Virus record (IMG/VR): IMGVR_UViG_3300005099_000012
Location: 1 to 36,349 of that record
DNA from: a virus
Direction: 5' to 3' (one strand)
Length of the DNA: 36,349 nt
The position numbers and the translations under genes were made by a program. The first letter of the stretch is position 1. Every line of letters starts with the position of its first letter. Below are positions 4,149-31,039 of this stretch, piece after piece. A model generated the notes under the pieces. That model did no database searches, was not told where the DNA came from, and was given only the letters and a program-made list of their open reading frames with translations.

Positions 4149-4195
4149 AAAAATTCGTTGCAAGACGCTTATATCCTTGTTTCATGCAAATTTTT
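4149..4195 (+). promoter_or_regulatory. Intergenic AGACGC element, copy 1
   Basis: AGACGC lies at 4163-4168, followed by exactly 14 bases and then CATGCAAATTTTT. The upstream side is AAAATTCGTTGC. It lies in the gap before the RNA ligase gene and points the same way. Four other gaps in the window carry the same architecture. It is probably a promoter part or a binding site for a viral regulator. Confidence 0.6.
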
Positions 4196-4252
4196 CAAGC
4201 TACCCTATATCTTACTATTCCTAACCAATAAAAATTTTCTTATACGCTAAAT

Positions 4253-5110
4253 ATGAAGATAGAAGAGGTTATAAAATATCCAAAATTAGGATATATAAGA
4301 GAATCTCCTTATGGTGGTAGAGAATTACTTGGTAAATTAATATTTTGGGAAGAAAAACGAGATGGTTCTAACATACGATGTTTCTTAGATGATAGTGATA
4401 ATATCCAATTCGGAAGTAGAAATAAAATACCTGCAAGTGATGATTTGTTAAAATCAATTGAAAATACAGGTTATATAGATACACTCAAAGAGGCACTTTA
4501 TACAGAGAAACATCAATGGAATCATGATATAATTATATTTTTTGAATTATTACAAAAAGGTAAAAGTCCTTCTCGTATAGAATATCATGAAAAAGATGAC
4601 ATTGCGGTATTCGATATTTATGATATGAAAGGAGGTTGGTGGAACTATACTAAAGTATATCAATTCTGTTATCAATGGAAGTTACCAGTAGTGAAATTAT
4701 GGGCAGTATCGTCTCATTCCGCTATCGAAGGCTTGGAAAAACAGATAGAAAAGATGCTTGAGAGAGCAAAGAGAGAAAACCGAGAAGGCGTAGTATTCAA
4801 GTCCTATAATGGTGATGAAGTTTATTTCTTCAAAGATAGATTAGATATTCCACATGAAAAGGATATAGAAATTAATATAGACAAAGACACTCCTAAATAT
4901 CCAGAACTACCTGAAGCAGAAGTTATGAACGAAATACAAAAAGTTTTAGATGAAATAGGAGCTGAACAATTTGGGGAAAAGAAAATAGCTATGCCTCTTA
5001 TAGCTCAATATGTAGCAGCCGAAGCGAAAGCGAGAATGTATTCTGTACCTAAAGGACTATATTCATATTATTTAAAGAAATTAGGAGAAATACAATATGG
5101 AAAAGAATAA
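4253..5110 (+). CDS. ATP-dependent RNA ligase (Rnl2-like nucleotidyltransferase)
   Basis: Joins RNA ends through a lysyl-AMP intermediate. The 285 residues show the covalent nucleotidyltransferase motifs in order: motif I KRDGSN with the likely adenylated Lys35; GSRNK (54-58), matching motif Ia; FFEL (96-99), motif III; FDIYD (120-124), motif IIIa; EGVVFK (178-183), motif IV; and FFKD (192-195), motif V. The C-terminal 80 residues are helical and lack an OB-fold signature, which argues for RNA ligase over DNA ligase. Viral RNA ligases often repair host-cleaved RNA; no tRNA or kinase-phosphatase partner is visible here. No clear ribosome site precedes the ATG, so the mRNA may be leaderless or have a short leader. 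It overlaps the next gene by 14 bases. Confidence 0.85.
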   Translation: MKIEEVIKYPKLGYIRESPYGGRELLGKLIFWEEKRDGSNIRCFLDDSDNIQFGSRNKIPASDDLLKSIENTGYIDTLKEALYTEKHQWNHDIIIFFELLQKGKSPSRIEYHEKDDIAVFDIYDMKGGWWNYTKVYQFCYQWKLPVVKLWAVSSHSAIEGLEKQIEKMLERAKRENREGVVFKSYNGDEVYFFKDRLDIPHEKDIEINIDKDTPKYPELPEAEVMNEIQKVLDEIGAEQFGEKKIAMPLIAQYVAAEAKARMYSVPKGLYSYYLKKLGEIQYGKE

Positions 5111-5444
5111 ATTGAATATATCAATCAATTCATACTACTTCAATCTACTATTTACAATATTATTTACAGTATTAGGCTATTTTGTTTATGATGGAGTTAG
5201 GGGCGCACTGGGGATATTTCTTTTGTGTTTGTTATACAATATTTTTGTTTTGCTAAGTGTGATTCCATTTGGAGGTTGTATTGGTCAGGCAGTTTTAATG
5301 GTGATAGTTTCGCCTAAAATATTGGATTTAGTCGGTTTATATCCAACTTGGTTGACAGCTACTATGTTCTGGATTTATCTCATATATGGAATATTTATAA
5401 CTTTTGTATCTTCAATAATTTATTTAGCGATATTAAGTAAATAG
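5097..5444 (+). CDS. Multi-span membrane protein of unknown function
   Basis: The 115-residue protein has about four hydrophobic segments: near residues 14-30 (YFNLLFTILFTVLGYFVY), 35-57, 60-80 and 88-112 (MFWIYLIYGIFITFVSSIIY). The start overlaps the end of the RNA ligase gene in another frame, implying translational coupling. The stop is just ahead of the dCTP deaminase gene. I see no motif for a transporter, holin class or enzyme. Confidence 0.7.
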   Translation: MEKNKLNISINSYYFNLLFTILFTVLGYFVYDGVRGALGIFLLCLLYNIFVLLSVIPFGGCIGQAVLMVIVSPKILDLVGLYPTWLTATMFWIYLIYGIFITFVSSIIYLAILSK

Positions 5445-5445
5445 T

Positions 5446-6006
5446 ATGCTATCGGATAGTGAAATTTTAGAAGAAATAGAAAAAGGAAATATAATAATAA
5501 AACCATTTAGAAAAGAACAATTAAATTCAAATAGCTATGATGTGCGATTAGGCGAGTATTATGCAGTAGAACTTAATGGTTTTCACATTGTATATCCTCT
5601 TGATGAACAGAGTGTAAAGAGACATTGGAAAATTAAAAAAACAAATAGTGTGATAGACATACGACAAGGAGAAACAATATTAGCACATACTCAAGAGATT
5701 ATTGGAGCTCGAAAAAATATAGCAACTAAGATGAATGCGAGAAGTTCAGTGGGAAGATTAGGAATATCAGTTTGTAAATGTGCAGGATTCGGTGATGTAG
5801 GTTATATAAGTAGATGGACAATGGAAATTACTAATCATTCACGATATGCTTGGATATCTCTTCCTGTGGGTATGCGAATAGCACAAATATCATTTTTTAG
5901 AACCGGTAAAGTATTAAATGAATACAAAGGAAAATATGGTCAAGGTGAATGGACGCCTGAAGATATGATACCGAAACTGTGGAAAGATAAAGATATAATA
6001 AAATGA
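5446..6006 (+). CDS. dcd: dCTP deaminase / dUTPase-family enzyme
   Basis: Members deaminate dCTP to dUTP, and some also hydrolyse dUTP, feeding dTMP synthesis. Landmarks in the 186 residues are NSYDVRLG (29-36); MNARSSVGRLGISV (96-109), which holds the substrate-binding Arg-Ser-Ser; AGFGDVGY (113-120), in place of the common AGFIDPGW; WTMEITNHS (124-132), with Glu127 at the catalytic glutamate position; and LPVGMRIAQISF (139-150). These support the trimeric Dcd fold and an intact active site. Whether it is mono- or bifunctional cannot be decided by eye. With NrdD it forms a deoxynucleotide-supply set in the left block. It overlaps the following zinc-ribbon gene by four bases. Confidence 0.88.
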   Translation: MLSDSEILEEIEKGNIIIKPFRKEQLNSNSYDVRLGEYYAVELNGFHIVYPLDEQSVKRHWKIKKTNSVIDIRQGETILAHTQEIIGARKNIATKMNARSSVGRLGISVCKCAGFGDVGYISRWTMEITNHSRYAWISLPVGMRIAQISFFRTGKVLNEYKGKYGQGEWTPEDMIPKLWKDKDIIK

Positions 6007-6131
6007 CTATGATGTGTCCTTATTGTGGTAAGAGTTTCGATGTAGCACTGAAGGTTGAAAATGAATATACGGGTATTACTATCGTATTGTGTCCATTTTG
6101 TAATAAATATTTTGAATATAATAGGAGGTAG
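6003..6131 (+). CDS. Tiny zinc-ribbon protein
   Basis: This 42-residue frame starts at the ATG overlapping the dCTP deaminase stop. Two knuckles, CPYCG at residue 5 and CPFC at residue 30, flank the stretch YTGITIVL, the usual short zinc-ribbon hairpin. The TAG stop is followed after five bases by the next ATG, and the GGAGG within its last codons serves as the ribosome site of that gene. The function is unknown. Confidence 0.7.
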   Translation: MTMMCPYCGKSFDVALKVENEYTGITIVLCPFCNKYFEYNRR

Positions 6132-6136
6132 ATATT

Positions 6137-6493
6137 ATGCCAAGACCGAAAGAAGAAGTAATGGATTACGCAGATGATGAATTTCTTACATACCTAGAAG
6201 ATCATTTGAATTACATCGAAGCCTATACCTATCGGTTAAAGATGATGATGACCGTATATAGAGAAGTCAAGGAAGAATATGGAGAGGGATTAGGTTGGAT
6301 ACCTACAAAAGAGATCATAAACAGCATCAATGATTTAAAGAAAAATCTCGATGCATTTTTCTTTGCAATTCTTGCAGATCAACGGTCATTGATATCGTCA
6401 TTAATAATGTGGCGTAAATCAAAAGCTGCCAAGAAAAAGAAAAATAAAAAGACCGAGAAGAAACGAGAAGAAGTAGACCCTTCTATAAGATAG
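6137..6493 (+). CDS. Helical protein with lysine-rich tail, unknown function
   Basis: The 118-residue product is predicted mainly helical from its composition. The N-terminal part is acidic (DYADDEFLTYLEDHLNYIEA), and the C terminus is very basic (KSKAAKKKKNKKTEKKREE). A GGAGG sequence six to ten bases before the ATG is a good ribosome site. The charge asymmetry would suit a nucleic-acid-binding tail on a dimerising helical domain, but no family is recognised. A long T-run/A-run follows the gene. Confidence 0.7.
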   Translation: MPRPKEEVMDYADDEFLTYLEDHLNYIEAYTYRLKMMMTVYREVKEEYGEGLGWIPTKEIINSINDLKKNLDAFFFAILADQRSLISSLIMWRKSKAAKKKKNKKTEKKREEVDPSIR

Positions 6494-6510
6494 TGTTTTA
6501 AATAAGAATA

Positions 6511-6529
6511 TTTTTTTTTTAAAAAAAAA
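6511..6529 (+). terminator. T-run followed by A-run, possible transcription terminator
   Basis: Ten T followed by nine A lie between the genes ending at 6493 and starting at 6543. Archaeal RNA polymerase can terminate at T-runs without a hairpin, and the T/A palindrome could also pair. A shorter T8/A8 version occurs at 34407-34422, also between two genes. Confidence 0.4.
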
Positions 6530-6542
6530 GAGAGAAGAAACG

Positions 6543-6926: not shown

Positions 6927-6927
6927 A

Positions 6928-7539: not shown

Positions 7540-7552
7540 TAATATATTTAAA

Positions 7553-7900: not shown

Positions 7901-7910
7901 TACTATTAAT

Positions 7911-7952
7911 AAATTGCACCAGACGCACATATCCTTGCTACAACAAAATTTT
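7911..7952 (+). promoter_or_regulatory. Intergenic AGACGC element, copy 2 (upstream of PCNA)
   Basis: AGACGC at 7921-7926 is followed by 14 bases and CAACAAAATTTT. An inverted partner, GCGTCTATGATT, begins at 7994, 67 bases beyond the first motif. The gap leads to the PCNA start at 8029, with GGAGG upstream of it. It is likely a promoter or operator region for PCNA. Confidence 0.6.
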
Positions 7953-8028
7953 CTTCATAAGATAATAATAAAGTATTACCAACTAAAAATATTGCGTCTA
8001 TGATTGAATATGGAGGAGTTTTGATAAC

Positions 8029-8769
8029 ATGATTGAAATTGAATTGGAAAATAAAATATTTAGAGATATGTTGGAAGCTATATATGCTATAAGAGATGAA
8101 GCGGCATTGAATTTTACTGATGGCGCTATATATTCAAGAGTTACTGATTATGGAAATGTGGTATTAGTAGAAGCTACTATACCAAATGATTTATTTAGTG
8201 GTTTATCTTCAGATGAGAATAGAGAAGTGGGTCTAAATATTGAAGACTTATTAATCTATACTAGGTTAGGTCCTTCAGCAGATGATATTAAAATCATGAT
8301 TGGCGATAAATTCAGAATGAAGACTGGTAATTACGAGATAGAAATGGATATTTTTGAAACTTCATACCTTAAAAGTAAAGCTAAAATTCCCGATGAATTT
8401 GAATGTAAATGTAATGTAAATATAAATGAAATTAGAAAGATTGCTCGTGCTGCCAGTCAAATCCAAAATGATGTATTGGTGTTTGAACTCAACAACACTC
8501 ATGAATTACTAACTATTTCTTCTGAAGGCGATAATGAAACTATCAGAGTTGATATACCAGTTAAAGATAAATCTAATGTAGATGTTTTTAATAAGTTAAA
8601 ATCAGCCTACTCTGTTGATTACATGCTTAAAATCATTAATGCTCTATACAATATCGGTATTTATGAAGTAAGTGTTGCATTTAAAGATGATTTCCCTATA
8701 AAAATGTCATGTCCTCTTCATGAACAAGGCAGCCTTACGTACTATATAGCGCCTCGTATTATTGACTAG
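8029..8769 (+). CDS. pcn: DNA polymerase sliding clamp (PCNA)
   Basis: The ring-shaped clamp holds replicative polymerase and other enzymes on DNA. At 246 residues it is the normal archaeal length. Typical features are the N-terminal FRDMLEAIYAIRDEAALNFT, the inter-domain stretch near residues 115-135, and the C-terminal VSVAFKDDFPIKMSC followed by LTYYIAPRI, where clamp clients normally dock. A virus with its own PCNA probably has an archaeal-type replication machinery encoded nearby or uses host polymerase. It is flanked on both sides by the AGACGC regulatory elements, which suggests separate control from its neighbours. A GGAGG ribosome site lies about 12 bases ahead of the ATG. Confidence 0.93.
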   Translation: MIEIELENKIFRDMLEAIYAIRDEAALNFTDGAIYSRVTDYGNVVLVEATIPNDLFSGLSSDENREVGLNIEDLLIYTRLGPSADDIKIMIGDKFRMKTGNYEIEMDIFETSYLKSKAKIPDEFECKCNVNINEIRKIARAASQIQNDVLVFELNNTHELLTISSEGDNETIRVDIPVKDKSNVDVFNKLKSAYSVDYMLKIINALYNIGIYEVSVAFKDDFPIKMSCPLHEQGSLTYYIAPRIID

Positions 8770-8772
8770 TTC

Positions 8773-8818
8773 AAAATTTTGTGTGAGACGCAAATAGAAG
8801 GCGCTCATTAAAATTTTT
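8773..8818 (+). promoter_or_regulatory. Intergenic AGACGC element, copy 3 (downstream of PCNA)
   Basis: AAAATTTTGTGTG precedes AGACGC at 8786-8791. Exactly 14 bases follow, then CATTAAAATTTTT. An inverted GCGTCTAT lies at 8860-8867, 68 bases beyond the motif. ATGCGATTTTATA follows at 8887-8899 and is also found near copy 4. Confidence 0.6.
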
Positions 8819-8886
8819 ATGGTTAACGTATATAAAACTATTACCTTTATTATTTTATTGCGTCTATCATTAAATTTGTGCATCTG

Positions 8887-9151
8887 ATGCGATTTTATAG
8901 GCAGTTGTTAAGAAAAACGATTTGTCCTGACTGTGGAAGATACATACAAGAAAGAATATTATACCGGTGGAGTGATTTTGCAATGTTCATATTGTGGATT
9001 CTATCAAATGCTTCCTATAAGTCGCAAGAAACAAATACCATCTAAAAGAAGAGAGTGTACACTAAGTAGTAAAAGCTATAAAAGAAATGCGTGTAGACTG
9101 ATTCAAAAATTCAGTGTAGTTGTTTGTCTACACGCTTTAAAATATATTTAA
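8887..9151 (+). pseudogene. Zinc-ribbon gene apparently broken by a frame change
   Basis: From ATG 8887 one frame encodes ICPDCGRYIQE and then loses sense. One base over, the frame from about 8933 encodes YYTGGVILQCSYCGFYQML. Joined, they give a knuckle-hairpin-knuckle ribbon like the one at 6003-6131. A single-base change between about 8936 and 8960 would restore it. The cause may be mutation, assembly error or recoding; the sequence alone cannot tell. The second frame runs on to a stop at 9151, through the hairpin at 9089-9135. The gene's true end, its promoter and whether it works are uncertain. Confidence 0.5.
9089..9135. terminator. Hairpin between converging gene blocks
   Basis: A perfect 10-bp inverted repeat (GCGTGTAGAC at 9089-9098, GTCTACACGC at 9126-9135) has a 27-base loop and is followed by TTTAAAATATATTTAATT. 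It sits where the + strand block meets the - strand block and could stop transcription from both sides. Confidence 0.65.
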
Positions 9152-9152
9152 T

Positions 9153-11936
9153 TTATTCTATTATATTTAAATTACTTCTATAATATATGGTAAAATCATC
9201 TCCATCGCTTATCGTAGTGCAATCCACTGTTCCATTAGTTACATCCACACTTGGTACATCTATATCTGCATTATTCTTCTTTACTTTATAAACATCACCA
9301 CTGGAATATATTGGATTGGAAAGACCAAGCTTATCAGAAATACCAACAGAGACTGTAATATTTGTATTGCTTTCAGAATAGTAAGTCACTTTGGTTACGG
9401 TAGCAAATGCCTTACTGCCATAAATATCGGTGTGACCACCTGCAGCTATTTCGGTATTCGGTACCGTAAGCGTTTCTGATATGCTAATACCTCTTGCATC
9501 TATACCTCTAATCACTATGTCACCACCGTCAGGTGTTTGAGGATTCCCGCTATCTGTGTTAGTTATCCTTATCATTACATTCCTCGGAACGTCTGGGTTA
9601 GTTGTGTCTGTGTGGTCTGCTCCATCTGGTGTTATAGCTGCATGAACATAATCTACATCTTCAGCAAGAATATCCATAAAGAGGTCGGAATGGTATTCAT
9701 ACATATTTTTTACCGGTCCATCACTATTCCGTTGTAGAGCATTTACCAAATTATTACGCACAGTTGAACCGGCATCATACCATAATGAAATTCCATAATT
9801 TTGATGATAATTTACTGAATCCTCTTTATAACATAGATTTCCTAATATTACATTACGCTTCGCGCTCCATGTTGTAATTCCACCAATCCATCCTTCGTTT
9901 GCTTTGTTATTATCCACACAAATATTTTCAGTGACGACATTTTTTTCACTTTCAGGACGCAAATATATTCCACTGTATTTACAATTTTTCACAATATTGT
10001 AGCTAATAACATTATATTTAGAAGAACTTATTCCAGCACCTAAGTCTATGCCATTTACTGGAGCTTTGTAAACATAGTTACCAAGAATTGTATTCCGATC
10101 ACCAATATTTAGACCACATTCAATGAATTTATTGCCGATTATAACGCTGTCATAAGCAAGTGTTCCACCAAGCCCATCTGAATAGAACACATTACCAACT
10201 ATTCTAACATTTTGAGGATTTGCTATACCACAGTGTCCATTTTTGTAAAAAACACAATTAATAACACTTACTTGACCATTGTTCCATAACATCAAGCCAT
10301 CATGGTCATTTTCTATGAAGAAGCAATTTGATACGGTGACATCGCTTGCACATGATATCACTAAGCCATTTGCCCAGCTTCCTTTACCATTTTTGTAGAA
10401 CACACAGTTTGTTATACCCACATAACGAAGTTCGGATGATTCTATATGCACTGCACCTCTATTATTCTCGAAATGACAGTTATCAATAATTACATTCTTA
10501 CCTTTTATATGCTCAATACATATGCTCGAACTCCATTCATTTCGACCACAATTGATAACTTTACAGTTGGTTATCTTTACACCATTTACGATATTGTCTT
10601 GCATAGTAATACCCGCATGCACTGCATTCTTTATAGTACACGAATCGATTTCTAAGTTTTGGATTTCAGGAACCTGATAGCCAGCTGAAACAGAGATACC
10701 ATGGTATCCTTTTTCAATAAACAGTCTTTGCAGTAATATATTGTATTTTACAAACCATGTCTGCGCTATCTCAATTAAGGTACCATGAGAATTTATTATT
10801 GATAAATTCTTGAGAGTGATATACGACCTATTAATAATAATCGAGTAAGAGCCTCCCTGAAAGTCTATAATAGAAACTCCACCTTCTGCTGGCAATCCTT
10901 CTAATGTCAAGAAAGTTTTATCAAGATTCAAGTCATCTCCAAGTTTATAATGACCACCGAGTAATACTATTCTTATTCGTCCGTAATCGTAAGTTACGCT
11001 AAGGGATTCCCCGGATACTATTGAAGTTGTTAATGGAATAGGTTTTATCCTACCTTGTGTTACATCGAGTTCATAATCTTCATTTAATGTGTATGTCACA
11101 CCGTTATTCTTAACTATTTCAGATTTCTCATGTATGAATGGCTCGGACAATGCGCACCAGTTGTTTAATACTAAGAAATCTACTCTAAATGTGTAGTTAT
11201 TTGATGATGTTGTCACGTATATCTCTATGTTTGTAAAGTTTGCCAACGAAAAGCTGCCACCATGCCATCCTGGGCAAGTTAAATCAAATTCTATATGCTC
11301 CCAATCATCGCTACGTAAATATGTATCCCATGAATAATAATTTCCGCTCCCATCAGAGAGTTTTAACGTAATTTGCTTTCCTGCACCTGCTTTTATGTAA
11401 AATTCCACAACCGTATACGCACTCCAATCGAAATTACCTGTTAGCTTAACTCCGGGATTGTCAGTTGTACCACCTACAATTTTTAATGATGCTGTACCTT
11501 CTTTTTTATCTGATGTATCTTGCGATAATGTTTCATCCCCGCGTAATGCTGTCCAGCCATTTCCAATCGGGTCATCCATGTCATCAAACGTACTAAATTT
11601 CGGTATTATAGTATCAGTCTTAGTTTTAACTCCCGCAGCTATAGCATTTTCTATTACACGCACATCATCAACATCAGCTTCACCCACTGCTATTATATGT
11701 CCTTCTTTATCTCTCGCATATATTTTTTCATCATCTTTATATACAACAGCCGAATATGATCCTATATATTTCATATCTCCAAAATATTCCAATTCATCAT
11801 TTATATCATCTATTAAATATTCAAGACCTTCTACCTCGTCTTGTAAATTAGGATAAAGAGCACGAGTTAATCGTACCGCATTAGCCCAAATTCTTTCTAA
11901 TGCAGGATAACTATATGAAGATTGATTGTCTCCCAT
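9153..11936 (-). CDS. Tailspike-like protein with right-handed beta-helix
   Basis: The 927-residue protein has a short helical N terminus (about 1-100) that may attach to the tail, then a jelly-roll/CBM-like domain (about 110-265, including EGTASLKIVGG and VEFYIKAG). A long beta-helix follows (about 330-720) with many Asn-rich rungs such as VIDNCHFENNRG, VTNCVFYKNG-type turns and NVFYSDG. This is the fold of pectate-lyase-like and NosD-like spikes that bind or cut polysaccharide. The C-terminal 200 residues look like beta-sandwich domains. As the last gene of the tail block it fits a receptor-binding depolymerase of the host surface glycan. Catalytic residues cannot be named by eye. Confidence 0.8.
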   Translation of the reverse strand: MGDNQSSYSYPALERIWANAVRLTRALYPNLQDEVEGLEYLIDDINDELEYFGDMKYIGSYSAVVYKDDEKIYARDKEGHIIAVGEADVDDVRVIENAIAAGVKTKTDTIIPKFSTFDDMDDPIGNGWTALRGDETLSQDTSDKKEGTASLKIVGGTTDNPGVKLTGNFDWSAYTVVEFYIKAGAGKQITLKLSDGSGNYYSWDTYLRSDDWEHIEFDLTCPGWHGGSFSLANFTNIEIYVTTSSNNYTFRVDFLVLNNWCALSEPFIHEKSEIVKNNGVTYTLNEDYELDVTQGRIKPIPLTTSIVSGESLSVTYDYGRIRIVLLGGHYKLGDDLNLDKTFLTLEGLPAEGGVSIIDFQGGSYSIIINRSYITLKNLSIINSHGTLIEIAQTWFVKYNILLQRLFIEKGYHGISVSAGYQVPEIQNLEIDSCTIKNAVHAGITMQDNIVNGVKITNCKVINCGRNEWSSSICIEHIKGKNVIIDNCHFENNRGAVHIESSELRYVGITNCVFYKNGKGSWANGLVISCASDVTVSNCFFIENDHDGLMLWNNGQVSVINCVFYKNGHCGIANPQNVRIVGNVFYSDGLGGTLAYDSVIIGNKFIECGLNIGDRNTILGNYVYKAPVNGIDLGAGISSSKYNVISYNIVKNCKYSGIYLRPESEKNVVTENICVDNNKANEGWIGGITTWSAKRNVILGNLCYKEDSVNYHQNYGISLWYDAGSTVRNNLVNALQRNSDGPVKNMYEYHSDLFMDILAEDVDYVHAAITPDGADHTDTTNPDVPRNVMIRITNTDSGNPQTPDGGDIVIRGIDARGISISETLTVPNTEIAAGGHTDIYGSKAFATVTKVTYYSESNTNITVSVGISDKLGLSNPIYSSGDVYKVKKNNADIDVPSVDVTNGTVDCTTISDGDDFTIYYRSNLNIIE

Positions 11937-18796: not shown

Positions 18797-21700
18797 TTAG
18801 AATGTAGATCGTACCGCTTTACCTATCTCTCTTCGTACTATTTCCTTGATCTCTTTCTGAGATACACCCTGAGGTGGCTGACCCTCAAACTTCAGATTTA
18901 TATCCACTTGATGTCTTTTGACTTCTGTTATTTTTTCTCCTTTAGTTATTGGAATAGTAGGAGTTGTTATCTCTTCAGTAATTTTATTCCACATCGATTG
19001 GTAAAATTTAGGTTTAACTTTGATTTCTTCTGTCCCGGTTGATGTTATTTCAGTCTTTTCTTCTACTGTAAGTTTTTCTTTTAATCCAGTACCAAATAAA
19101 TCTAATAATTTCTTTCCTTCTTCATTAAGCTCTATATTGAGAGTTATAGGCTGAGTTTCTATTTGTTCTACTATTTTATTCCAGTCTTCCATGAAATTTT
19201 CACTATTTAAATCTAAGGTTATTTCTTTTTCTGTATCTATATCTTTTACTTTTTTAACTGCATTATCTATACGCTCTAACATATCATCCCAAGTTTTGAT
19301 ATTAAGTAACTGTTTTAGATCATCGGATAATGTTATGCTCCTCAATGAAGTTTCCATTTCATTTACGTATCCCATAGCATCAGCTATTTGCTCCGGTAAA
19401 GTTTTAGTTATAGTAACTTCAGGTGCTTCAACCTCGCCCGCCTTTTTTATGATTTCTTTAATATTCTTAGGAAGCTTACTTGATTTCTTTTCGACTTCGC
19501 CATATAAATCAAGAATATCCTTAAACGATTGCTCACTGGTTTTTGATAATGATTTAGGCACACCATAAATATCATGAAGTGAAGATGTTATACCGGATGT
19601 AGCTTTATCCCATTGCTCTTCCAGATCTCCAACTCCTACCGTACTGTCATGTATTAGTCGCAAACTTCCACTTAACCATCTCCACCCTTCTTTATATGCC
19701 TCTCGCTCTGCATCAGAAGCAGCCTCCATTGATTCTTCTTTAAACCGTTCTGCAAGTGTTCGAGACTTGATTGCTGCCTCAACTATCTTTTCAGATGCTG
19801 CTGTCTTCTTACCTTGTTTTTCATATTTTATAGCCTGATTAACTAGTCGCCCGATAGTTTTAACTTCATTATTATATTCACTAATTATATCACGGGTTTT
19901 GCCTGCTGCTTTCTCTTCAATATCCTTTATCTCATCCCAGGTATCATACATTCCTGAATATGCATCCACTATATCTAAAGAAGTTTCGTATAAATTACGA
20001 GTAGAACTACTTAAATCATCAAATGTTCTTCTTAATTCTTTATTTAAGCGTTTTAAATCTACCTCAGCCTTTATTACATCTAAAATTGCACCTTCTACTT
20101 TTGCATATTGAATTTGTAACTTTTCAGTTGTTCCAAGATATTTATCTGTAAGTTTATCTCTTTCTTTTAGTAACTTATTAGTATCGAAAAATGCATCAGC
20201 TTGTTTCTTTTCAACTATTACAAATCTATCACCCATCCATAGAAGGTCATGACCCGTTTTCAATAGTGCTTCATGTACCTCAACACCTGTTTCACCGATT
20301 TTTATTGATGTGCCGTGAGCTTCGTTATATTTTTCAATTGTTCTTACTACATTTTTATAAGTTAATGAAGTTTCATCATTAAGAGCTATTTCTGCTCGTC
20401 TTGTTTGCGATTGTTTATCCCATAATCCTAATTCCTCTTCACCAAGTTTATGTGTTGCTTTAAATATATTTTGAATATCCCTAAAATTTTTAAATTCTTT
20501 TTCTGTTAGTGTATCGTGAGTATTATAAACATTAATTATAGCATCTGCTGTTTTTTGTGCTAATGCGATTGAAATCATATCAAGTTTATTTAATTCTTCT
20601 TTTCGTTTACCTTCGTCTTTTACTGTTTCAATAATATTTTGTCTCAAGACAGGCTCGATTTCTAACCATTCATCATATTCTTTAATTGTTTGTAAATCAC
20701 TTTTTCTAACATTATTTTGCTTTTTGACCCATTCAACGCCTTCTCTCAATGCTATATTTCTTTGATCCCAAATTTTACCCTCAAGTTCAAATGCTTTAGT
20801 TGCATCTTCTGCGGATTCTTTTAATTCCTGCATGCCTATTGTCATAACTCGCTGCGCTTCATTAAAATGTAAACTGGCACGGAGGAAATTACCTCCCATC
20901 ATTTCTATGCCCCCTGCAGCCAATTTGCCAAACGCCTTTGCAGAAAGAGTGACATAAGAAAAAAATCCTTCAAAAACAGAGGGTAATTTATTCACATGCT
21001 CATATAGCCTATCTATTTCCTGGATATAAACATCTGTAGCAGTTGTAGTATTTTCTATTTCATCATTTAGTTTATTAATAACCTCTAATGCTTTAGCAAT
21101 TTGTTCTTCTACTCCTACTAATGCACCCTTAACACTAAGTAATGAAGGTTGTAAAGCCTCACCTAATTCTCTCCTTGCTGCCTCAGCACGATTCTGAAAT
21201 ACTTGTAATTTGGCGGATGTTTTAGTTATAGCAATTGAATATTCTTTCTGTAATGATGTACCCCATTTTAGTTCTTCATGTGCCATTTCCATATTTTTTA
21301 CCAATTGAGGATAATTCTCAGCAAGTGTAGCAATAGCAAAACCCGCAACTTCTCCAAAATGTTCGTATGCTTTTTCTGTCCTTTTAACACGTGATGGTAT
21401 TTCATTAAGTTTCTTAAGATACATCATTAATGCCTTCATGGGGTCTTTTTCTAATGTTTCTGCCCACGCCTCAGCTTGACTTCCCATAAATTTAGTAATC
21501 TTAGAAGCGTTTGAAGCTAATTGCTGGAATACACGTCTTAACCGAGTGCCTGCTCGTTCACCTGCCATACCAGCCGCTACGAGTGTAGCAGATAACGCAG
21601 CTGCTTGATCCACTGTAAAGCCCATCATCTTTCCCGCCGCACCTATATTTTTCATTGCTGAAACTATTTCTTCAGTTGTTGCTGCTGTTGTATTCTCAAG

Positions 21701-23281
21701 TTCATTTATGACAGCACCTAATTTTTCGATTTCAGTAATAGGTAATCCAAACGCTTCACGTATTTTTGCTAATGCTTCTGCCGCTTGATCCGCTGTTAAT
21801 GTAGTAGCTATACTTAGTTTTGCAACAGCTTCGGTAAAGGAAAGTAAATTTTGAGTACCTGAAATACCAAGTCGCCCAGCTTCACTCGCTATATTTGCTA
21901 AACTTGTAACAGCCATAGGTACATCCTTACTCAACTTAGTTAATGCATCACCTAATTCATACATCTGATCAATTGTAAGATTAGCAGTTTTTCTCACTTC
22001 GTATAAAGCATCCTCAAAAGATATAAATGGATCAAATAACCAATTAACAATCTGTCCAAGAGTGCGAAGAGCAGCATCAACTAAAAATATGGGACCAAGT
22101 GTTGTAAGAAATCCCATACCAACTTTCTTAACTATACCTCCTATACGTTCAATGCCACCACCCAATTTACCCCAAGTTGTACCATGCCTGCGAAGACTTT
22201 TATCTAACGTCAATATTGCGGAATTTTGCATTTTCGTTGTAGCATCAAGTTCTCTTCCTAACAAACGAGCCGTTTCTATCTGGCGTACTCGCTCTTTTAA
22301 TTGCTGACGTAAAGCTTTATTTACTGCACTTATACCTTGTTTTTCGACTTCCGCTGCCGCTTTTAATTGTAATGCAGCTAATCTTCCTGACCGTACTTCT
22401 TCTTTAAAAACTTTTCGATTTGCGTTCAACAAAATATTGAGAAGTTTATTAATGTTCGTTTGTTTTTCCAGTTGAGTATTAACATTTCGGAATGAAGATG
22501 CAGCAGCTCTTTGAGTATCCGCCATTTGTTTTGTTCCGGTAGCTATTTTATCAATAGTGTTACCAAAAGCTGAATACTGTTTGACTGCTTTCTTAAAACT
22601 TTCTGTATCGCTTCGATGCCATTTATGTGTACGCTGTAATGAATCACTTAATTTGTCATAATTACGTACGGTAGATTGAATTATTCCTGAGCCTGACTTC
22701 TGTATCTTATATGCTCGTTGTAAAGTACTACTTAATTTACTATAGTCCTTAGACGAAGATCGTATGATATCTGCATTGAGATGCTGCCATTTAGTACTAT
22801 CTTGTAGTGTCTTACTGAGCTTATCGTGTTTTTTAATAGAAGCAGTTATTGTTTTTAAACCTGATTTTTGTTGCTTATAACTTGCTTGAAGCGAAGTGCT
22901 AAATCTATCATAGTTTTTAATTGTGGATTGAATAGCTTCGGCGTGTGACTGTTGCCACTTACTGGTTTCTCTAAGAGATTGATCAAGTTTATTATAATAA
23001 GCAGTGGAAGACTGAAGAGCCTTTGTATTACTTATATGTTGTCTTGCGATAGTCTGAGTAGATGTAGCCAACTTTGTATTTGCATCATATACACCTTGAA
23101 GTTTCTTTTCTATTCCTGAAAATAAAGGAGTAAAATTCTTAAATGAATCTCTATAAGCATTAGAAATTATTCGAGTACTATGTGCTAACTTAGTTATCTG
23201 TGCTTGTAGTCTTTGAAGTGTACGATCTACGACACCTGCACCAGAAATACTAATTCCTACATTATATTCATAATCAGGCAC
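18797..23281 (-). CDS. Tape measure protein
   Basis: At 1494 residues this is the longest gene of the tail block, and it lies directly after the tail chaperones. Residues about 85-245 contain six 28-residue coiled repeats. Residues 385-415 form a hydrophobic stretch (GFLTTLGPIFLVDAALRTLG). Residues about 430-590 match the PhageMin_Tail/TP901 type core (for example SLANIASEAGRLGISGTQNL, LTADQAAEALAKIREAFGL, FTVDQAAALSATLVAAGMAG). The rest is mostly charged helix, with a Lys/Ile/Thr-rich end. The protein sets tail length, and its extent predicts a long tail, a siphovirus-like shape. No lytic or peptidase domain is evident. Confidence 0.92.
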   Translation of the reverse strand: MPDYEYNVGISISGAGVVDRTLQRLQAQITKLAHSTRIISNAYRDSFKNFTPLFSGIEKKLQGVYDANTKLATSTQTIARQHISNTKALQSSTAYYNKLDQSLRETSKWQQSHAEAIQSTIKNYDRFSTSLQASYKQQKSGLKTITASIKKHDKLSKTLQDSTKWQHLNADIIRSSSKDYSKLSSTLQRAYKIQKSGSGIIQSTVRNYDKLSDSLQRTHKWHRSDTESFKKAVKQYSAFGNTIDKIATGTKQMADTQRAAASSFRNVNTQLEKQTNINKLLNILLNANRKVFKEEVRSGRLAALQLKAAAEVEKQGISAVNKALRQQLKERVRQIETARLLGRELDATTKMQNSAILTLDKSLRRHGTTWGKLGGGIERIGGIVKKVGMGFLTTLGPIFLVDAALRTLGQIVNWLFDPFISFEDALYEVRKTANLTIDQMYELGDALTKLSKDVPMAVTSLANIASEAGRLGISGTQNLLSFTEAVAKLSIATTLTADQAAEALAKIREAFGLPITEIEKLGAVINELENTTAATTEEIVSAMKNIGAAGKMMGFTVDQAAALSATLVAAGMAGERAGTRLRRVFQQLASNASKITKFMGSQAEAWAETLEKDPMKALMMYLKKLNEIPSRVKRTEKAYEHFGEVAGFAIATLAENYPQLVKNMEMAHEELKWGTSLQKEYSIAITKTSAKLQVFQNRAEAARRELGEALQPSLLSVKGALVGVEEQIAKALEVINKLNDEIENTTTATDVYIQEIDRLYEHVNKLPSVFEGFFSYVTLSAKAFGKLAAGGIEMMGGNFLRASLHFNEAQRVMTIGMQELKESAEDATKAFELEGKIWDQRNIALREGVEWVKKQNNVRKSDLQTIKEYDEWLEIEPVLRQNIIETVKDEGKRKEELNKLDMISIALAQKTADAIINVYNTHDTLTEKEFKNFRDIQNIFKATHKLGEEELGLWDKQSQTRRAEIALNDETSLTYKNVVRTIEKYNEAHGTSIKIGETGVEVHEALLKTGHDLLWMGDRFVIVEKKQADAFFDTNKLLKERDKLTDKYLGTTEKLQIQYAKVEGAILDVIKAEVDLKRLNKELRRTFDDLSSSTRNLYETSLDIVDAYSGMYDTWDEIKDIEEKAAGKTRDIISEYNNEVKTIGRLVNQAIKYEKQGKKTAASEKIVEAAIKSRTLAERFKEESMEAASDAEREAYKEGWRWLSGSLRLIHDSTVGVGDLEEQWDKATSGITSSLHDIYGVPKSLSKTSEQSFKDILDLYGEVEKKSSKLPKNIKEIIKKAGEVEAPEVTITKTLPEQIADAMGYVNEMETSLRSITLSDDLKQLLNIKTWDDMLERIDNAVKKVKDIDTEKEITLDLNSENFMEDWNKIVEQIETQPITLNIELNEEGKKLLDLFGTGLKEKLTVEEKTEITSTGTEEIKVKPKFYQSMWNKITEEITTPTIPITKGEKITEVKRHQVDINLKFEGQPPQGVSQKEIKEIVRREIGKAVRSTF
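22547..23029 (-). repeat. Six 28-residue repeats in the tape measure, with a 56-residue super-period
   Basis: Residues about 85-245 of the tape measure fall into units of 28 residues with the core Y-KLS-SLQ-S-K-Q-S. Tryptophans at 109, 165 and 221 are exactly 56 residues apart, while the alternate units carry Gln137 and Ile193, also 56 apart. A duplicated pair of 28-residue units is the best explanation. Confidence 0.75.
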
Positions 23282-23783: not shown

Positions 23784-23788
23784 TCGGA

Positions 23789-24168: not shown

Positions 24169-24654
24169 TTAGTGAGTTGATATATTTGTTGCATCATAAT
24201 CCACTGATTCAGTAACTATATCACCAGCACCGACGGATGTTCTGTATGAATGGAATTTAACACCATAAATTACTCTATTATAATCCGCAGAATCACTACT
24301 GGATGTTGTATTCATAAGTATCTTACACGACTGAAGACCTTCACCATACATACCAGTTGCAGTGAGCAAGTCAAGATGACTGTTATTACCAGCATATATA
24401 ATCTCATTATACGTAGCATTCTTGCTATATAAATTTCGTTCTAATGTACCTGTAACTTCCTGAACACCCTCAATCATCGAAACAGCATCCCTTGAACCTA
24501 TAACGAATACTTTGTCAATATCAACAGAAGTATCCATAGTAAATGTATTTAATAGCGGATTACGACCATCATGCCAAATGCTTTCATTAGAACAAGACTC
24601 TAATCCTATTCTGATTCGATTCTTCCAACCCTTAATCGCACCATATTCAGGCAT
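24169..24654 (-). CDS. Major tail tube protein
   Basis: The 161-residue beta-rich protein lies just upstream of the chaperones and tape measure. Its layout fits a tube subunit: the N-terminal RIRIGLESC, the mid portion VQEVTGTLERNLYSKNATYN (a common tube pattern with V-G-ER), and the C-terminal YGVKFHSYRTSVGAGDIVTE followed by DYDA. Tube proteins stack as hexamers to form the tail. It has its own long upstream gap with an AGACGC element and a GGAGGAGG ribosome site, which suits strong late expression. The homology is inferred from context and pattern, not from a family search. Confidence 0.72.
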   Translation of the reverse strand: MPEYGAIKGWKNRIRIGLESCSNESIWHDGRNPLLNTFTMDTSVDIDKVFVIGSRDAVSMIEGVQEVTGTLERNLYSKNATYNEIIYAGNNSHLDLLTATGMYGEGLQSCKILMNTTSSSDSADYNRVIYGVKFHSYRTSVGAGDIVTESVDYDATNISTH

Positions 24655-24765
24655 ATTAATCTACCTCCTCCTTATAACATATTATTATAAAATCGCATAA
24701 TACGCATATATTTAAGCGTGAACAAAATATTTTTCATTACCTAATATTTTATATTACCTTTACAA

Positions 24766-24808
24766 TAAAATTGCAATGAGCACTTTATATATGCGTCTCA
24801 CACAAAAT
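24766..24808 (-). promoter_or_regulatory. Intergenic AGACGC element, copy 4 (upstream of tail tube)
   Basis: Read on the minus strand: ATTTTGTGTG, AGACGC (24798-24793), 14 bases, CATTGCAATTTT. The upstream part and the CTCATT after the spacer match copy 3 at 8773-8818 almost base for base. ATGCGATTTTATA lies 94 bases beyond the motif, against 95 bases in copy 3. Confidence 0.6.
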
Positions 24809-25231
24809 CTATGCTTCCACCTTGACATGTATTACTGCTGATTGGAGTATCCATTTTTCAACTGGTGCATATTCTAAATCTACGCCGCCTTTATAATCCA
24901 ATTCATACCATTTAGATTCGTCATGACGTAAAGTTCTTAATTTTTCCATTACAGCATCTAAATCTTTCAGTAATCGTTCACCTCTATAATCATAAGGAAC
25001 TTTTGTAATCAAGTGTATTTCTAATTCTATAATCGAATATTCATCATCTTCCAATAAACCACCTCTATAAAGAGGAGTAATTCTAATAGGTACAATAAGA
25101 CATATAGGAAAGTAGTCAGAAGCAGTAGGAAACCTCAAAAAATGCATCACTTTATAACCACTAAGTACACTATCTATTTCATTCTTCAATGTATCCATTA
25201 CCGAATTTAATTTATCTATTAATGAAGTCAT
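24809..25231 (-). CDS. Tail terminator / tail completion-like protein
   Basis: The 140-residue protein lies between the connector-like gene and the tail tube. The order LIDKLNSVMDTLKNEIDSVL, CLIVPIRITPLYRGG, IELEIHLITKVPYDYRGERL and VIHVKVEA resembles the alpha/beta plan of tail terminators (gpU-like), where a central beta-sheet is followed by EL-I-V-strands. Such proteins cap the finished tail and join it to the head. The assignment rests on place and fold pattern. It overlaps the upstream gene by four bases. Confidence 0.5.
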   Translation of the reverse strand: MTSLIDKLNSVMDTLKNEIDSVLSGYKVMHFLRFPTASDYFPICLIVPIRITPLYRGGLLEDDEYSIIELEIHLITKVPYDYRGERLLKDLDAVMEKLRTLRHDESKWYELDYKGGVDLEYAPVEKWILQSAVIHVKVEA

Positions 25232-25856: not shown

Positions 25857-27684
25857 CTTGCTCGATAGTCTCTATATCAATACTAATATTAAATTTCTTA
25901 ATATCAATAGTTAAGTATTTTATAAGAGCTTGTGCCTTTTTTACTGTCGTTAATATTGGAGAAAACAATAAAGGTGCAGTTAATGAATACTCATAAATCA
26001 TTTGTAAGAGTGGAACAAATTCAGCATCAGTGGATACAGTAAGTGTAGCTACACCTTCATACTCGCTACTATAAGTATCTTTAAGAATGGCTGGAATAAT
26101 TGCTTCAATCATATTTTCAAGTGCCATTTTAGAAGATACATTAAGAGTATTACTAAAATTGATTATGAAAAGTATCGTGGATAAATAATTAAAGTAAAGA
26201 TTTATAGGAATATTTAAGTCTCTAATTAAACTACTACAAACATTTGCATCCAAATTCTGGATAACATGACTATCAATAACCGTTTTTATAATAGGTACAA
26301 ATGCATTATCAATTGTGAAAGAAAGAATATTTTGTTGTTCAAGAATTTCTGTAATTAAAGGATTAATTATAAGAGGAGTATCAAATCTTGAACTAATAAA
26401 ATTTTTATAATTTGATTTTAAACTTAAAGACGAATCAGCAGAAAGAATACTGGTAAGAGAAATGTATTGAGACCCTAATGCTAAAGGTATAACCACTGAA
26501 CCTACTACATAATATTTAGAAGTACTAAATAATAAAGAATTAATTAGTGTATTTTCATGAGAAAAAGCAAAATTTTCATGAACATCGAGTGATAATTCCA
26601 CGTTTAAAGGAGTAATAGCAGATAACCAACTTGGATAAGCATAATAATAGTTATCAGCATAAATTGATGGTTTAAGAATACCTATGAGACCTTTTTTTCG
26701 AGGAGAATAATAAACGGGATAAAGATAAAGCGGAACTAAAAGTGATTGAAGTAAAGATAATTGAAATACATCACTAAGTTTACTATCAAAAATTAAATTA
26801 AATGGAATTTTACAATAGTATTTCTTTTGATATGTATCTTTTAGTTTACAATCCTTTGAAATTGAATTTTTAGAAATTAATTTAGATGAACTTTTACAAT
26901 TAAGAGGTATTTCTATATTTAAAGGGGTAATTCCGGTTATTTTTAATAATTCTTTTTCCAACGGGTGATAGAACATGCAAAATGGGTCGGTGTATAATTG
27001 CCAGATTTCATCAGCAGCCAAAGGTCGATCATAAACCATGACAATAGAGATTATACCATCGAAATATCTTCCGGTGTGTTGTGGTTGATGTCCAATTTCA
27101 AAATAATCATTTGGAGTTTCAGGAGTAGCAGTAGAAGTTCCGCTCTGTTGCACTCCGTTTACATAAAAATATAGCGTTCCCGAGACCCTTGTCATAGCCA
27201 GATGATACCACTGTCCTGTTGAGGGAAAATCATACTGGCTATCTATCCAAGCCACGTTTCCGTATAGGGCAATAAAGCTTTGATCGTCAGAACCGAAACC
27301 CCAACCCCCACTGTCATCTCCGTTATATACAAACAATCTAATACCTGAAAGAACAGAAGGATTCACCCATGCTACCACAGAAAAATTATCAACGGTATCT
27401 GTAATCCTTCCTCCAGTAGCAACAAAATCATCACTTCCATCAAACTTCAAAGCAGAGCCGATTTTTTCTACTGTCCAACTCGGACGATACCCCGCTGTGC
27501 CACCACCAAGCGTGCCATGATTCCCATGACCGCTTAAATCATACACGATATTGCCACCACCTTCATTGAACAGCCAGCACCCGACAAGCCCATAAGCGAG
27601 TGGATGATATGGATTGAGAAGCACACCGTACATGGGCTTTTCATACGGATGCCACAGTCCTGCACGATGATGAGAATGAATCAT
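25849..27684 (-). CDS. LamG-domain protein with long beta-rich tail
   Basis: Residues about 25-235 form a concanavalin-like/LamG domain: LVGCWLFNEGGGNIVYDLSG, LKFDGSDDFV, NFSVVAWVNPS, WYHLAMTRVSGTLYFYVNG and a DGIISIVMVYDRPLAADEIW ending. Such domains bind glycans or proteins. Residues 245-611 have repeated short motifs (ITPLNIEIPL, ITPLNVELSL) and many Ser/Ile/Leu residues but no known fold. Base composition shifts inside the gene: the LamG part is clearly richer in G and C than the AT-rich remainder, hinting that the domain came from elsewhere. It lies in an adhesin-like set between head and tail genes and may form a head or neck appendage. Confidence 0.75.
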   Translation of the reverse strand: MIHSHHRAGLWHPYEKPMYGVLLNPYHPLAYGLVGCWLFNEGGGNIVYDLSGHGNHGTLGGGTAGYRPSWTVEKIGSALKFDGSDDFVATGGRITDTVDNFSVVAWVNPSVLSGIRLFVYNGDDSGGWGFGSDDQSFIALYGNVAWIDSQYDFPSTGQWYHLAMTRVSGTLYFYVNGVQQSGTSTATPETPNDYFEIGHQPQHTGRYFDGIISIVMVYDRPLAADEIWQLYTDPFCMFYHPLEKELLKITGITPLNIEIPLNCKSSSKLISKNSISKDCKLKDTYQKKYYCKIPFNLIFDSKLSDVFQLSLLQSLLVPLYLYPVYYSPRKKGLIGILKPSIYADNYYYAYPSWLSAITPLNVELSLDVHENFAFSHENTLINSLLFSTSKYYVVGSVVIPLALGSQYISLTSILSADSSLSLKSNYKNFISSRFDTPLIINPLITEILEQQNILSFTIDNAFVPIIKTVIDSHVIQNLDANVCSSLIRDLNIPINLYFNYLSTILFIINFSNTLNVSSKMALENMIEAIIPAILKDTYSSEYEGVATLTVSTDAEFVPLLQMIYEYSLTAPLLFSPILTTVKKAQALIKYLTIDIKKFNISIDIETIEQDG

Positions 27685-28121: not shown

Positions 28122-28207
28122 TTATACCTCCTTCAATTTAATGATATGTGATAATTAGAAATAGTAAAATGAAACTTATATTTTTCTCTTTTTTCTATAA
28201 ACTATAA

Positions 28208-28606: not shown

Positions 28607-28608
28607 TT

Positions 28609-28809
28609 TTAATCTACCTCCTTACGAATTTCTCCTAATTTTCTTTTTAATTCAATATCATTATTAATTAAATCAAGTAATAATGCTTTAACAATTATTT
28701 TAGAATCATCATCAAGAAAGCCTGTATCACCAACAACTTTAGTACTACCATCAGCATTAATACGTTCAACAATAATACGATACCGAAGAGGTAAATTATC
28801 AATAATCAT
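28609..28809 (-). CDS. Small protein of the fibre-like module
   Basis: This is a 66-residue protein with a beta-like start (LPLRYRIIVERINADGSTKV) and a helical end (DSKIIVKALLLDLINNDIEL). It lies two bases upstream of the fibre-like gene and six bases after the DUF2341 gene. Small proteins in this position can be fibre chaperones or linkers; there is no direct evidence. No family is recognised. Confidence 0.55.
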   Translation of the reverse strand: MIIDNLPLRYRIIVERINADGSTKVVGDTGFLDDDSKIIVKALLLDLINNDIELKRKLGEIRKEVD

Positions 28810-28814
28810 TTTTT

Positions 28815-29777
28815 TTAAACAATAACAGTAGGCTCTGGGGAAACGTATTTGCGTATTCTAAAATTATCATAGTAAATATCAGTAGGGCTTCTGCTTCCAC
28901 CCGCAACATGTAAATTTCCTGAAGTATAGGTAGTGTCTGATGTAGTTAAGGTTTCTTCCCCGTTATTTATAACAACTTTTGTTTGTCCTGACGTTAATTG
29001 TATGCTAATACGAATCTCTGTATCCCAATAATTGTGAGTTCCCTCAGCTAAATTGTGCCACGAACCATCGTAGAGTCTGATGACAACATGTCCCGCGTCG
29101 TTTATCTGAAGCAAATAGCCATGCTCATGATAAGCGTGAACATCATTTTGAGCGTACCACGAAATTAAATTAGGTGGTGCAATACTCCCTGATATCTCAT
29201 GATTATACATTATGAAATCAGCGGCTTTGCCTGCCTCAAAAGCTTTTTCAGATCCATCGACTGCCGGGTCCTTGGCTAGTCCGCTTTTCTCTTCTTGGAT
29301 CTTTTTTATCTTCAGCCTTCCATCAGTCTCTTCAATTGAACCATAAGAGCCCGTAACTTTATCAACCCATTTGTTTGGGTCTTCACTATTATCATCAAAA
29401 TCATCGAAAAACTCGAAAACAGTAGAGCCATCACTCGCAGAACTGGCAGAAGGATTACCATAAATTATCCAAATATCTTTAATTCTATTTGCTGGGATAT
29501 ATGGTATTTTACACCATATAATTGCTTCAACTGAACTCCAAGATTCTATCCAATAAGGTAATTTTTTACCGGTATTATCACGAAATCTTATATCACTACC
29601 ATCTGGTTTACACTTTTCTAATGGGAAATTATCTTTAGTAAGCACTATCTTAACTTGATAATCTCTTAAATCTTGATTAACACCTTTAATATAAATTGGT
29701 CGTATGTAATTAAAATTACGATATGGTGAATGAGGATTCTTCAAAGGTAATGGATGTGGTAAAGAATATTTTGTCAT
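28815..29777 (-). CDS. DUF2341 and concanavalin-like domain protein
   Basis: I chose ATG 29777 (320 residues) over the TTG at 29792. Residues about 20-115 match DUF2341: IYIKGVNQDLRDYQVKIVLT, GSDIRFRDNTGKKLPYWIES, VEAIIWCKIPYIPANRIKDI and WIIYGNPSA. A beta-jelly-roll follows: FEFFDDFDDNSEDPNKWV, TDGRLKIKK, ISWYAQNDVHAYHEHGYLLQ and TDIYYDNFRIRKY. DUF2341 is common in secreted archaeal and bacterial surface proteins, usually beside carbohydrate-binding domains. On a virion it probably binds glycan. A T7 run precedes the start, perhaps an upstream terminator. Confidence 0.8.
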   Translation of the reverse strand: MTKYSLPHPLPLKNPHSPYRNFNYIRPIYIKGVNQDLRDYQVKIVLTKDNFPLEKCKPDGSDIRFRDNTGKKLPYWIESWSSVEAIIWCKIPYIPANRIKDIWIIYGNPSASSASDGSTVFEFFDDFDDNSEDPNKWVDKVTGSYGSIEETDGRLKIKKIQEEKSGLAKDPAVDGSEKAFEAGKAADFIMYNHEISGSIAPPNLISWYAQNDVHAYHEHGYLLQINDAGHVVIRLYDGSWHNLAEGTHNYWDTEIRISIQLTSGQTKVVINNGEETLTTSDTTYTSGNLHVAGGSRSPTDIYYDNFRIRKYVSPEPTVIV

Positions 29778-29817
29778 TCTAAATATAATCAAAAAAATAT
29801 GTTCTAATTATATATGA

Positions 29818-30189
29818 TTACACTGTACCCTGTGTTGCATATACTTTCACGTTACTTACATTCTTATCATCTTGATTCAAAACAGTAACTCTTAGATATT
29901 TAGGGTCGGGACATATAGGCACGGTTATACGAGAGGTTGAGCCCCTATCTAATTCATTGTCGAAATACCCATAGGGTGCAGTATCAACTCCACTCCAATT
30001 ATGCTGAGCTGTATAAATTCTGAGCTGGACAGGATGAGAAGCATTTGATGCATATTGAGATTCAACTGTTAACGCTAATTGTATAGTAGAAGATAAATCA
30101 ACTGTACTACAATCATTTAAACTCGATTCAGTACTCGCATTCAAACTATCAAGAGATAATATTTGCCAAGTAGATTTGTTTAATGCCAT
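29818..30189 (-). CDS. Beta-sandwich structural protein
   Basis: The 123-residue protein has strands such as STIQLALTVESQYA, PVQLRIYTAQHNWSG, SRITVPICPDPKYLRVTVLN and VSNVKVYATQG. It looks like a compact jelly-roll and resembles small siphovirus appendage subunits. The gene lies between the head-tail joining gene and the DUF2341 gene, with a good AGGAGG-like ribosome site. No enzyme motif is seen. Confidence 0.5.
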   Translation of the reverse strand: MALNKSTWQILSLDSLNASTESSLNDCSTVDLSSTIQLALTVESQYASNASHPVQLRIYTAQHNWSGVDTAPYGYFDNELDRGSTSRITVPICPDPKYLRVTVLNQDDKNVSNVKVYATQGTV

Positions 30190-30217
30190 ATTATTCCTCC
30201 CCTCTTTTTTAATATAA

Positions 30218-30718
30218 CTAACTATATATTGCTATACGTAAATGTTGTTCTGCTCTATATTTCACCCACTTACGAGCTCTTATATATGCACGCTCTATAA
30301 AATTATTTGCTTTATGACCTCTTACTCTACAATATAATTTTCCACAAATAGCACCAGCAGGCTGTCGTGGATAACAAATTTTTAATGCTTTCTTTCTTAC
30401 AGGATATATCCAACCACCTAAACGAACAGGCTTTACTACATATTTAAGATGTGGCAATTTATGAGCATCAAGAACCACAGCACCTCTGTATCTACCTTGC
30501 TTTCTAATGCAGTTTGCAGGATTCATTAAATAATTATAGATTTTATTTTCTGACCATTTATTACCTTTAGATTTACGAGGTGCTGTTCTTAATAACTCTC
30601 GCCTAATATCCTCTAATATTTTATTTCGTGCGTTATGTAGTTGTAATAGTATATCTTTCGATAGGATTGCTGGGCTCTTTCCCGCTAAATTATAATCCAA
30701 TACTATCCTGAAAGCCAT
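30218..30718 (-). CDS. HK97 gp10-like head-tail joining protein
   Basis: The 166-residue basic protein has a long helix (SKDILLQLHNARNKILEDIR), then RTAPRKSKGN, where gp10-type proteins have an AP-K-G motif, then beta-strands with HLKYVVKPVRLGGWIYPVRK, and a C-terminal AYIRARKWVKYRAEQHLRIA. Proteins of this family help complete the neck. It directly follows a 71-residue gene after the capsid gene. Two CG/YC pairs (ICGKLYC) may be structural. The family call rests on pattern and position. Confidence 0.55.
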   Translation of the reverse strand: MAFRIVLDYNLAGKSPAILSKDILLQLHNARNKILEDIRRELLRTAPRKSKGNKWSENKIYNYLMNPANCIRKQGRYRGAVVLDAHKLPHLKYVVKPVRLGGWIYPVRKKALKICYPRQPAGAICGKLYCRVRGHKANNFIERAYIRARKWVKYRAEQHLRIAIYS

Positions 30719-30720
30719 AA

Positions 30721-30936
30721 TTAAAAATCAGCTAAATATGGGAAGTAAGAAATATTCAAAACTCTTCCTCTTCTATTAACTGGTCTAAAATCTTTAGGTT
30801 GTGGTTTGTAGCCATCGGGAAATGTAAGATTAGCCCAATTGTATTCCCATGCTGTTATAGAAGATACATTCTGCATACCCTTATTTCTCAATCTCTGGTA
30901 CTTCTGTGTAAATATTTTATATACTTCACTTGCCAT
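30721..30936 (-). CDS. Small protein next to head-tail joining genes
   Basis: This is a 71-residue protein with a helical, basic N-terminal half (VYKIFTQKYQRLRNKGMQNV) and an aromatic C-terminal half (EYNWANLTFPDGYKPQPKDF). It is the first gene after the capsid gene and downstream of AGACGC copy 5, so it probably starts its own transcription unit. A minor neck or capsid component is plausible. No family is recognised. Confidence 0.6.
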   Translation of the reverse strand: MASEVYKIFTQKYQRLRNKGMQNVSSITAWEYNWANLTFPDGYKPQPKDFRPVNRRGRVLNISYFPYLADF

Positions 30937-30991
30937 ATTTTGCGTTCTATCAAAATTTTATTGTTATCCTAATATCTTTCTATGTCTCGTT

Positions 30992-31039
30992 GATTTTATT
31001 GCAATGTAACTTAAATATGAGCGTCTGATGCAAAAATTT
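30992..31039 (-). promoter_or_regulatory. Intergenic AGACGC element, copy 5 (after the capsid gene)
   Basis: Read on the minus strand: AAATTTTTGCATC, AGACGC (31026-31021), 14 bases with ATATTTAAG, CATTGCAATAAAAT. The outer ends TTTTGCAT and ATTGCAATAAAA are nearly inverted copies. It lies in the 182-base gap between the capsid gene and the next gene, beyond the terminator-like hairpin. Confidence 0.6.

Follow-up and report, generated by a model that had tools for sequence, protein, structure and literature searches.

Transcription control in archaeal viruses is, to our knowledge, known from few systems only. One case is the intergenic repeats of the tailed halovirus HF2 (Haloferacalesvirus), 58 bp long in class I and 29 bp in class II, which are proven promoters, some of them bidirectional, and have a TATA box at a fixed distance and the transcription start site (TSS) ~26 nt after it (PMC8707807). 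In crenarchaeal viruses, namely SSV1 (F55), SIRV1 (SvtR) and the AvtR system, a single viral regulator serves several viral promoters through related binding sites, which overlap the TSS or the TATA/BRE region, or lie ~80 bp away (PMC5569661).

A further intergenic element is present in IMG/VR record IMGVR_UViG_3300005099_000012, of which the whole stretch analyzed (36,349 bp) is referred to as the window. It is part of a tailed virus encoding an HK97-type capsid protein, PCNA, anaerobic ribonucleotide reductase, dCTP deaminase, and RNA ligase. PolB, ThyX, a terminase, a primase-like protein and an ERCC4-type nuclease are encoded in addition by related contigs. The genes for PCNA, the primase-like protein and the ERCC4 domain suggest that the host is archaeal. 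ThyX and NrdD have been reported for viruses of ANME-1 (PMC9894754). No paper describing the element was found in a search of freely accessible journal literature.

Structure of the Element

The window contains five AGACGC anchors, each followed by 14 bases and CA, at all the places where the original prediction had put them, and ATA occupies spacer positions 3–5 in 5/5 copies, also as claimed (Table 1). The pattern AGACGCNNATAN9CAW has 5 matches in the window vs. 0.00 expected, being absent from all 100 dinucleotide shuffles, and the reversed pattern has 0 matches there. The AGACGC hexamer by itself is not enriched in the window (7 vs. 4.25 expected); all seven hexamers fall within elements, and right arms hold two of the seven (7994 and 8860, both on the minus strand).

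Table 1. Elements and associated genes in the window (strand in brackets).
Feature	Position	Arm anchors	TATA-like centre	Gene context	Relatives
Element 1	4149..4275 (+)	left, AGACGC 4163 (+); right, ~4261	~4204–4222	includes ATG 4253 of RNA ligase gene (AAATATG); weakest copy	not found at orthologous locus in G1
Element 2	7907..8033 (+)	left, 7921 (+); right, 8019	~7960–7979	followed by GGAGGAG and ATG 8029 of PCNA	orthologous in G1, G4, G5, G6, G7
Element 3	8772..8899 (+)	left, 8786 (+); right, 8885	GTATATAAAACTATTACC	upstream of small zinc-ribbon-like ORF (ATG 8887)	orthologous in G1, G4, G5, G6, G7
Element 4	24686..24812 (-)	24798 (-) and 24700 (+)	GGTAATATAAAATATTAGG	upstream of tail-tube-like gene 24169–24654	orthologous in G1 and G7
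Element 5	30914..31040 (-)	31026 (-) and 30928 (+, weak)		includes ATG 30936 of 71-aa gene	orthologous in G1
PCNA gene	8029..8769 (+)			between elements 2 and 3; Pfam PCNA_N 1.7e-7	
HK97-type major capsid protein gene	31119..32060 (-)			upstream of element 5; Pfam PF25209, PF05065	91% identical in G1

The rigid ~45-bp unit of the original prediction exists but is only one arm, half of an element of ~126 bp, because each copy faces an inverted partner arm. In the alignment of the window copies, similarity continues for another ~80 nt downstream of the 45-bp unit, and scanning with a weight matrix built from the AGACGC arm reveals an inward-facing second arm 97–99 nt away at almost every locus. 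The complete element consists of two inverted arms around a TATA-like centre with the consensus RGGTATA-N6-TATACCY. A profile trained without the window recovers eight of its arms with scores of 20.9–41.1, vs. a maximum of 15.2 in 100 Markov shuffles; a match at 9957 (+, score 14.2) is a false positive. The weak partner arms of copies 1 and 5 stand at the fixed spacing with P = 0.0011 and P = 0.0017, respectively, and weak single arms are accompanied by a partner where the spacing predicts one, mostly with P ~ 0.001–0.01.

The eleven contigs that carry the element (see below) have 94 arms after removal of mirror matches, with 36 inverted pairs at 97–99 nt, 22 of them at exactly 98, and five direct pairs spaced 77–78 nt; within arrays, neighboring elements are spaced 101–103 nt. 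The arm matches its own reverse at an offset of 19 nt and is an imperfect palindrome. The dyad formed with an upstream AATTTT, as noticed originally, is this palindrome of the arm: the symmetry is there, but it belongs to the arm itself. Since the arm is an imperfect palindrome, inverted and direct pairs both set the arm centres 77–80 bp apart, and this common distance suggests a dimer site for which orientation is indifferent and distance is fixed. It is plausible that the fixed AGACGC-N14-CA spacing reflects contact by one protein, but this is not the whole picture: a larger constraint is the 78–80 bp between arm centres with the TATA-like sequence midway.

Inverted arms might also form the stem of an RNA hairpin or DNA cruciform, serving as terminator, processing site or attC-like recombination site, and those of copy 4 and of G1 26706–26804 do fold into long hairpins. 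Such a function is very improbable. The arms are less alike within an element than between elements (0.42 < 0.47; permutation P = 0.9986 for ≥), within-arm positions lack covariation (0.363 observed vs. 0.379 expected), the five direct-repeat pairs cannot form such a stem, and Rfam and tRNA scans gave nothing except one chance Rfam match under the cut-off. Arms that do not covary argue that the element is not a selected hairpin.

Read in the direction of the gene, the consensus comprises the upstream arm AAATTTTGCATGAGACGCNCATATTTNNGNNTCATTGNAATTTT, the centre RGGTATATAAAANTATACCY, and then AAAAATATTGCGTCTAT..TAAATATGNGCGTCTCATGCAAAATTT; the centre is followed by ATTGCGTCTA and AAATATG, and at PCNA by GGAGGAG after that. 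The TATA-like centre is ~40 nt before AAATATG, which provides the start codon in copies 1 and 5, and ~40 nt is also its distance from many of the start codons downstream. The upstream arm is different in type from the downstream one. In a leave-one-family-out analysis, seven of the 14 families have a polarity above +13 in gene direction, four a weak one (-2 to +1.3) and three an opposite one, two of the latter resting on unclear small ORFs in the tandem array; arm polarity lends modest support to a direction of the element.

Two side observations concern the sequences following elements 3 and 4. After element 4, ATGCGATTTTATAATAATATGTTATAA at 24672–24698 (-), read by eye, could encode a short leader MRFYNNML, and the ORF after element 3 likewise begins with MRFY, both MRFY starts deriving from the outer end of the right arm. 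The latter, zinc-ribbon-like ORF (8887–9151) seems split, with CPDC in the frame of ATG 8887 and CSYC in the frame of GTG 8933, as would result from a frameshift, an assembly error or the presence of two ORFs.

Genomic Position

All five window copies are intergenic, and precede the genes for RNA ligase, PCNA, the zinc-ribbon-like ORF, the tail-tube-like protein and the 71-aa protein that follows the major capsid protein. A GTG ORF overlapping copy 1 (4027–4224) is probably not a gene, because a short ORF with ATG at ~3995 appears to stop at ~4147, directly before the element. In the eleven contigs, 83 of the 94 arm centres are outside predicted ORFs of ≥60 aa, vs. ~10.5 expected, and several of the 11 exceptional arms are at uncertain gene starts or in small ORFs. 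Most elements adjoin the start of the next gene. The claim that no copy lies inside a gene is true of the window but not of the family: a clear exception is an element-like direct pair spaced 77 nt at 67972/68049 in G8 (L194 ~7972–8049), within an 1821-aa ORF homologous to the 1494-aa gene at 18797–23281 of the window.

In G1, G4, G7, and G9, a mostly non-coding stretch holds a tandem array of three to four elements; where both sides are present, this stretch marks the change from leftward early to rightward late genes. An array of 3–4 copies at such a strand switch could be expected of a replication, partition or packaging site. This function is quite unlikely, as it leaves unexplained the single copies at operon starts and the TATA-like centre at a fixed distance from the start codon.

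Many intergenic gaps of ≥90 bp lack the element, so other promoters must exist, and the element is not the sole promoter of these viruses. Coordinated timing of particular units, which had been suggested, finds no support in the positions of the element, which precedes replication, capsid and tail genes alike.

Distribution among Related Viruses

Ten further contigs were found in IMG/VR via the capsid protein, the arm pattern and the RNA ligase: 3300021563_000009 (G1), 3300021509_000217 (G2), 3300024423_000001 (G3), 3300021491_000005 (G4), 3300022552_000407 (G5), 3300021587_000002 (G6), 3300021513_000057 (G7), 3300033156_000439 (G8), 3300021590_000003 (G9), and 3300021507_000078 (G10). At least eleven contigs, all from uncultured tailed viruses, thus carry the element, the GC content of the ten relatives being 32–47%. 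Other matches to the arm pattern in IMG/VR, sorted by profile, are mostly chance. G1 is near to the window, as seen from its capsid protein (Table 1). Distant relatives are G2 and G3 (GC 45–47%) and G8 (38.5%), and most homologues that G3 shares with the window and G1 are 22–46% identical. In INPHARED, the only match to the capsid protein, at 24%, was in Halorubrum virus BLv36.

Orthologous elements are on average 86% identical vs. 66% for elements within one genome, which indicates that the element has not moved recently. Its inverted arms of 45–50 bp and several copies per genome resemble those of a MITE-like miniature inverted-repeat transposon spread through these viruses. This origin is highly improbable in view of these identities and of the positions kept across viruses, and neither a transposase nor, on unsystematic inspection, target duplications were noticed. 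Gain or loss of the element does occur, as element 1 is missing at the orthologous place in G1.

The window PCNA is only 52–54% identical to its relatives, vs. 80–91% for the capsid protein or nearby enzymes, and both flanking elements are kept. The divergence of this gene may possibly be due to gene replacement between elements. Another protein of these viruses, encoded in the late operon of G1 (L153 10916–13282, -), has 788 aa and an ATP-dependent ligase/mRNA-capping-enzyme-like nucleotidyltransferase domain. This DNA-ligase-like late protein is conserved in G3 and G8, and has no match among INPHARED phages.

Copies in hosts were sought with the exact pattern TTGYRTSAGACGCNCATAT in GTDB genomes, giving 11 matches, two of them weakly over the profile print threshold (9.4 and 15.5). 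These matches look like chance, because none resembles the element beyond the pattern. The pattern itself fits a minority of arms only, so a host version may have escaped this search.

Putative Promoter/Operator Function

The virus-specific promoter or regulator site of the original prediction is the best-supported reading, given the intergenic position at operon starts, the TATA-like centre, and the conservation at orthologous loci and in divergent relatives. Each copy is probably a virus-specific archaeal promoter/operator, having a TATA box between paired regulator sites. Host TBP/TFB, together with host RNA polymerase, would assemble at the central TATA-like box, and initiation is predicted 24–27 nt after the centre, within the right arm between ATT and GCGTCTA. 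Such a start would fit archaeal spacing, and would immediately precede either the start codon or the ribosome-binding site of the operon that follows. The TATA box has an imperfectly palindromic ~45-bp site on each side, with its centre ~40 bp away, and one dimeric regulator, either virus-encoded or from the host, may bind both sites. Through pairwise action or a short loop, this regulator could switch virus operons together, by activation or repression. A limited search in these viruses, several of whose contigs are fragments, identified no HTH or RHH regulator common to all. An early protein family of G3, G4, G6, G7, G8, and G9 was considered as a candidate regulator and rejected, having no Pfam match and not being obviously DNA-binding.

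The main rival of the promoter/operator reading is silencing by lysogeny operators similar to stoperators, in which a repressor bound to paired arms genome-wide would shut off or stop transcription, covering the TATA-like centre. It is consistent with the many intergenic copies, the tandem array at the early/late divergence and the element inside a G8 gene. It also has parallels in archaeal viral repressors such as F55 of SSV1, which occupies several viral promoters over the TSS and BRE (PMC5569661), and in mycobacteriophage stoperators, which are spread over the genome (PMC9283540). However, no repressor or integrase gene was identified, and stoperators are described as asymmetric single sites, whereas the present sites are palindromic and enclose, as a pair, a TATA-like box at a fixed distance. 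Silencing of this kind is a real possibility, though not a probable one.

More tentatively, the promoter/operator might be a symmetric two-way module, with a palindromic BRE-TATA-BRE centre that is flanked in both directions by a start region and a dimer site for the regulator; we consider this rather doubtful. If it were true, one nucleoprotein loop per element would gate both directions, coordinating the genome of widespread uncultured, probably archaeal viruses.

The element offers a sequence handle on the organization of transcription in uncultured tailed viruses, apparently archaeal. It predicts operon starts and marks the early/late switch region. Scans for it can link contigs to the virus group, and it can serve as a defined bait for a new viral regulator.

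Comparison with Known Systems

In the literature searched, nothing was encountered that is comparable to this fixed frame of two sites around a TATA box. Like mycobacteriophage stoperators, the arms are many putative regulator sites spread over the genome, but the stoperators are bacterial, short and asymmetric sites for a monomeric repressor, whereas the arms are paired, imperfectly palindromic and at fixed spacing (PMC9283540). The F55, SvtR, and AvtR systems differ in having fewer sites, with different sequences, and no fixed two-site frame around the TATA box has been described for them.

The nearest precedent for the putative promoters is the HF2 intergenic repeats, which are unrelated in sequence: HF2 bases 1–40000, IR1c–IR4 included, reach an arm-profile score of at most 1.0 vs. 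21–41 for the window arms. The element would therefore work like the HF2 repeats without being a member of them. Both are multi-copy, intergenic and kept at orthologous positions, with a TATA-like centre at a suitable distance, promoter activity being predicted in the present case. Unlike the HF2 repeats, which have 29–58 bp and one alpha motif, the element extends over ~126 bp, its two palindromic arms being placed symmetrically around the centre, and it is found in several diverged viruses.
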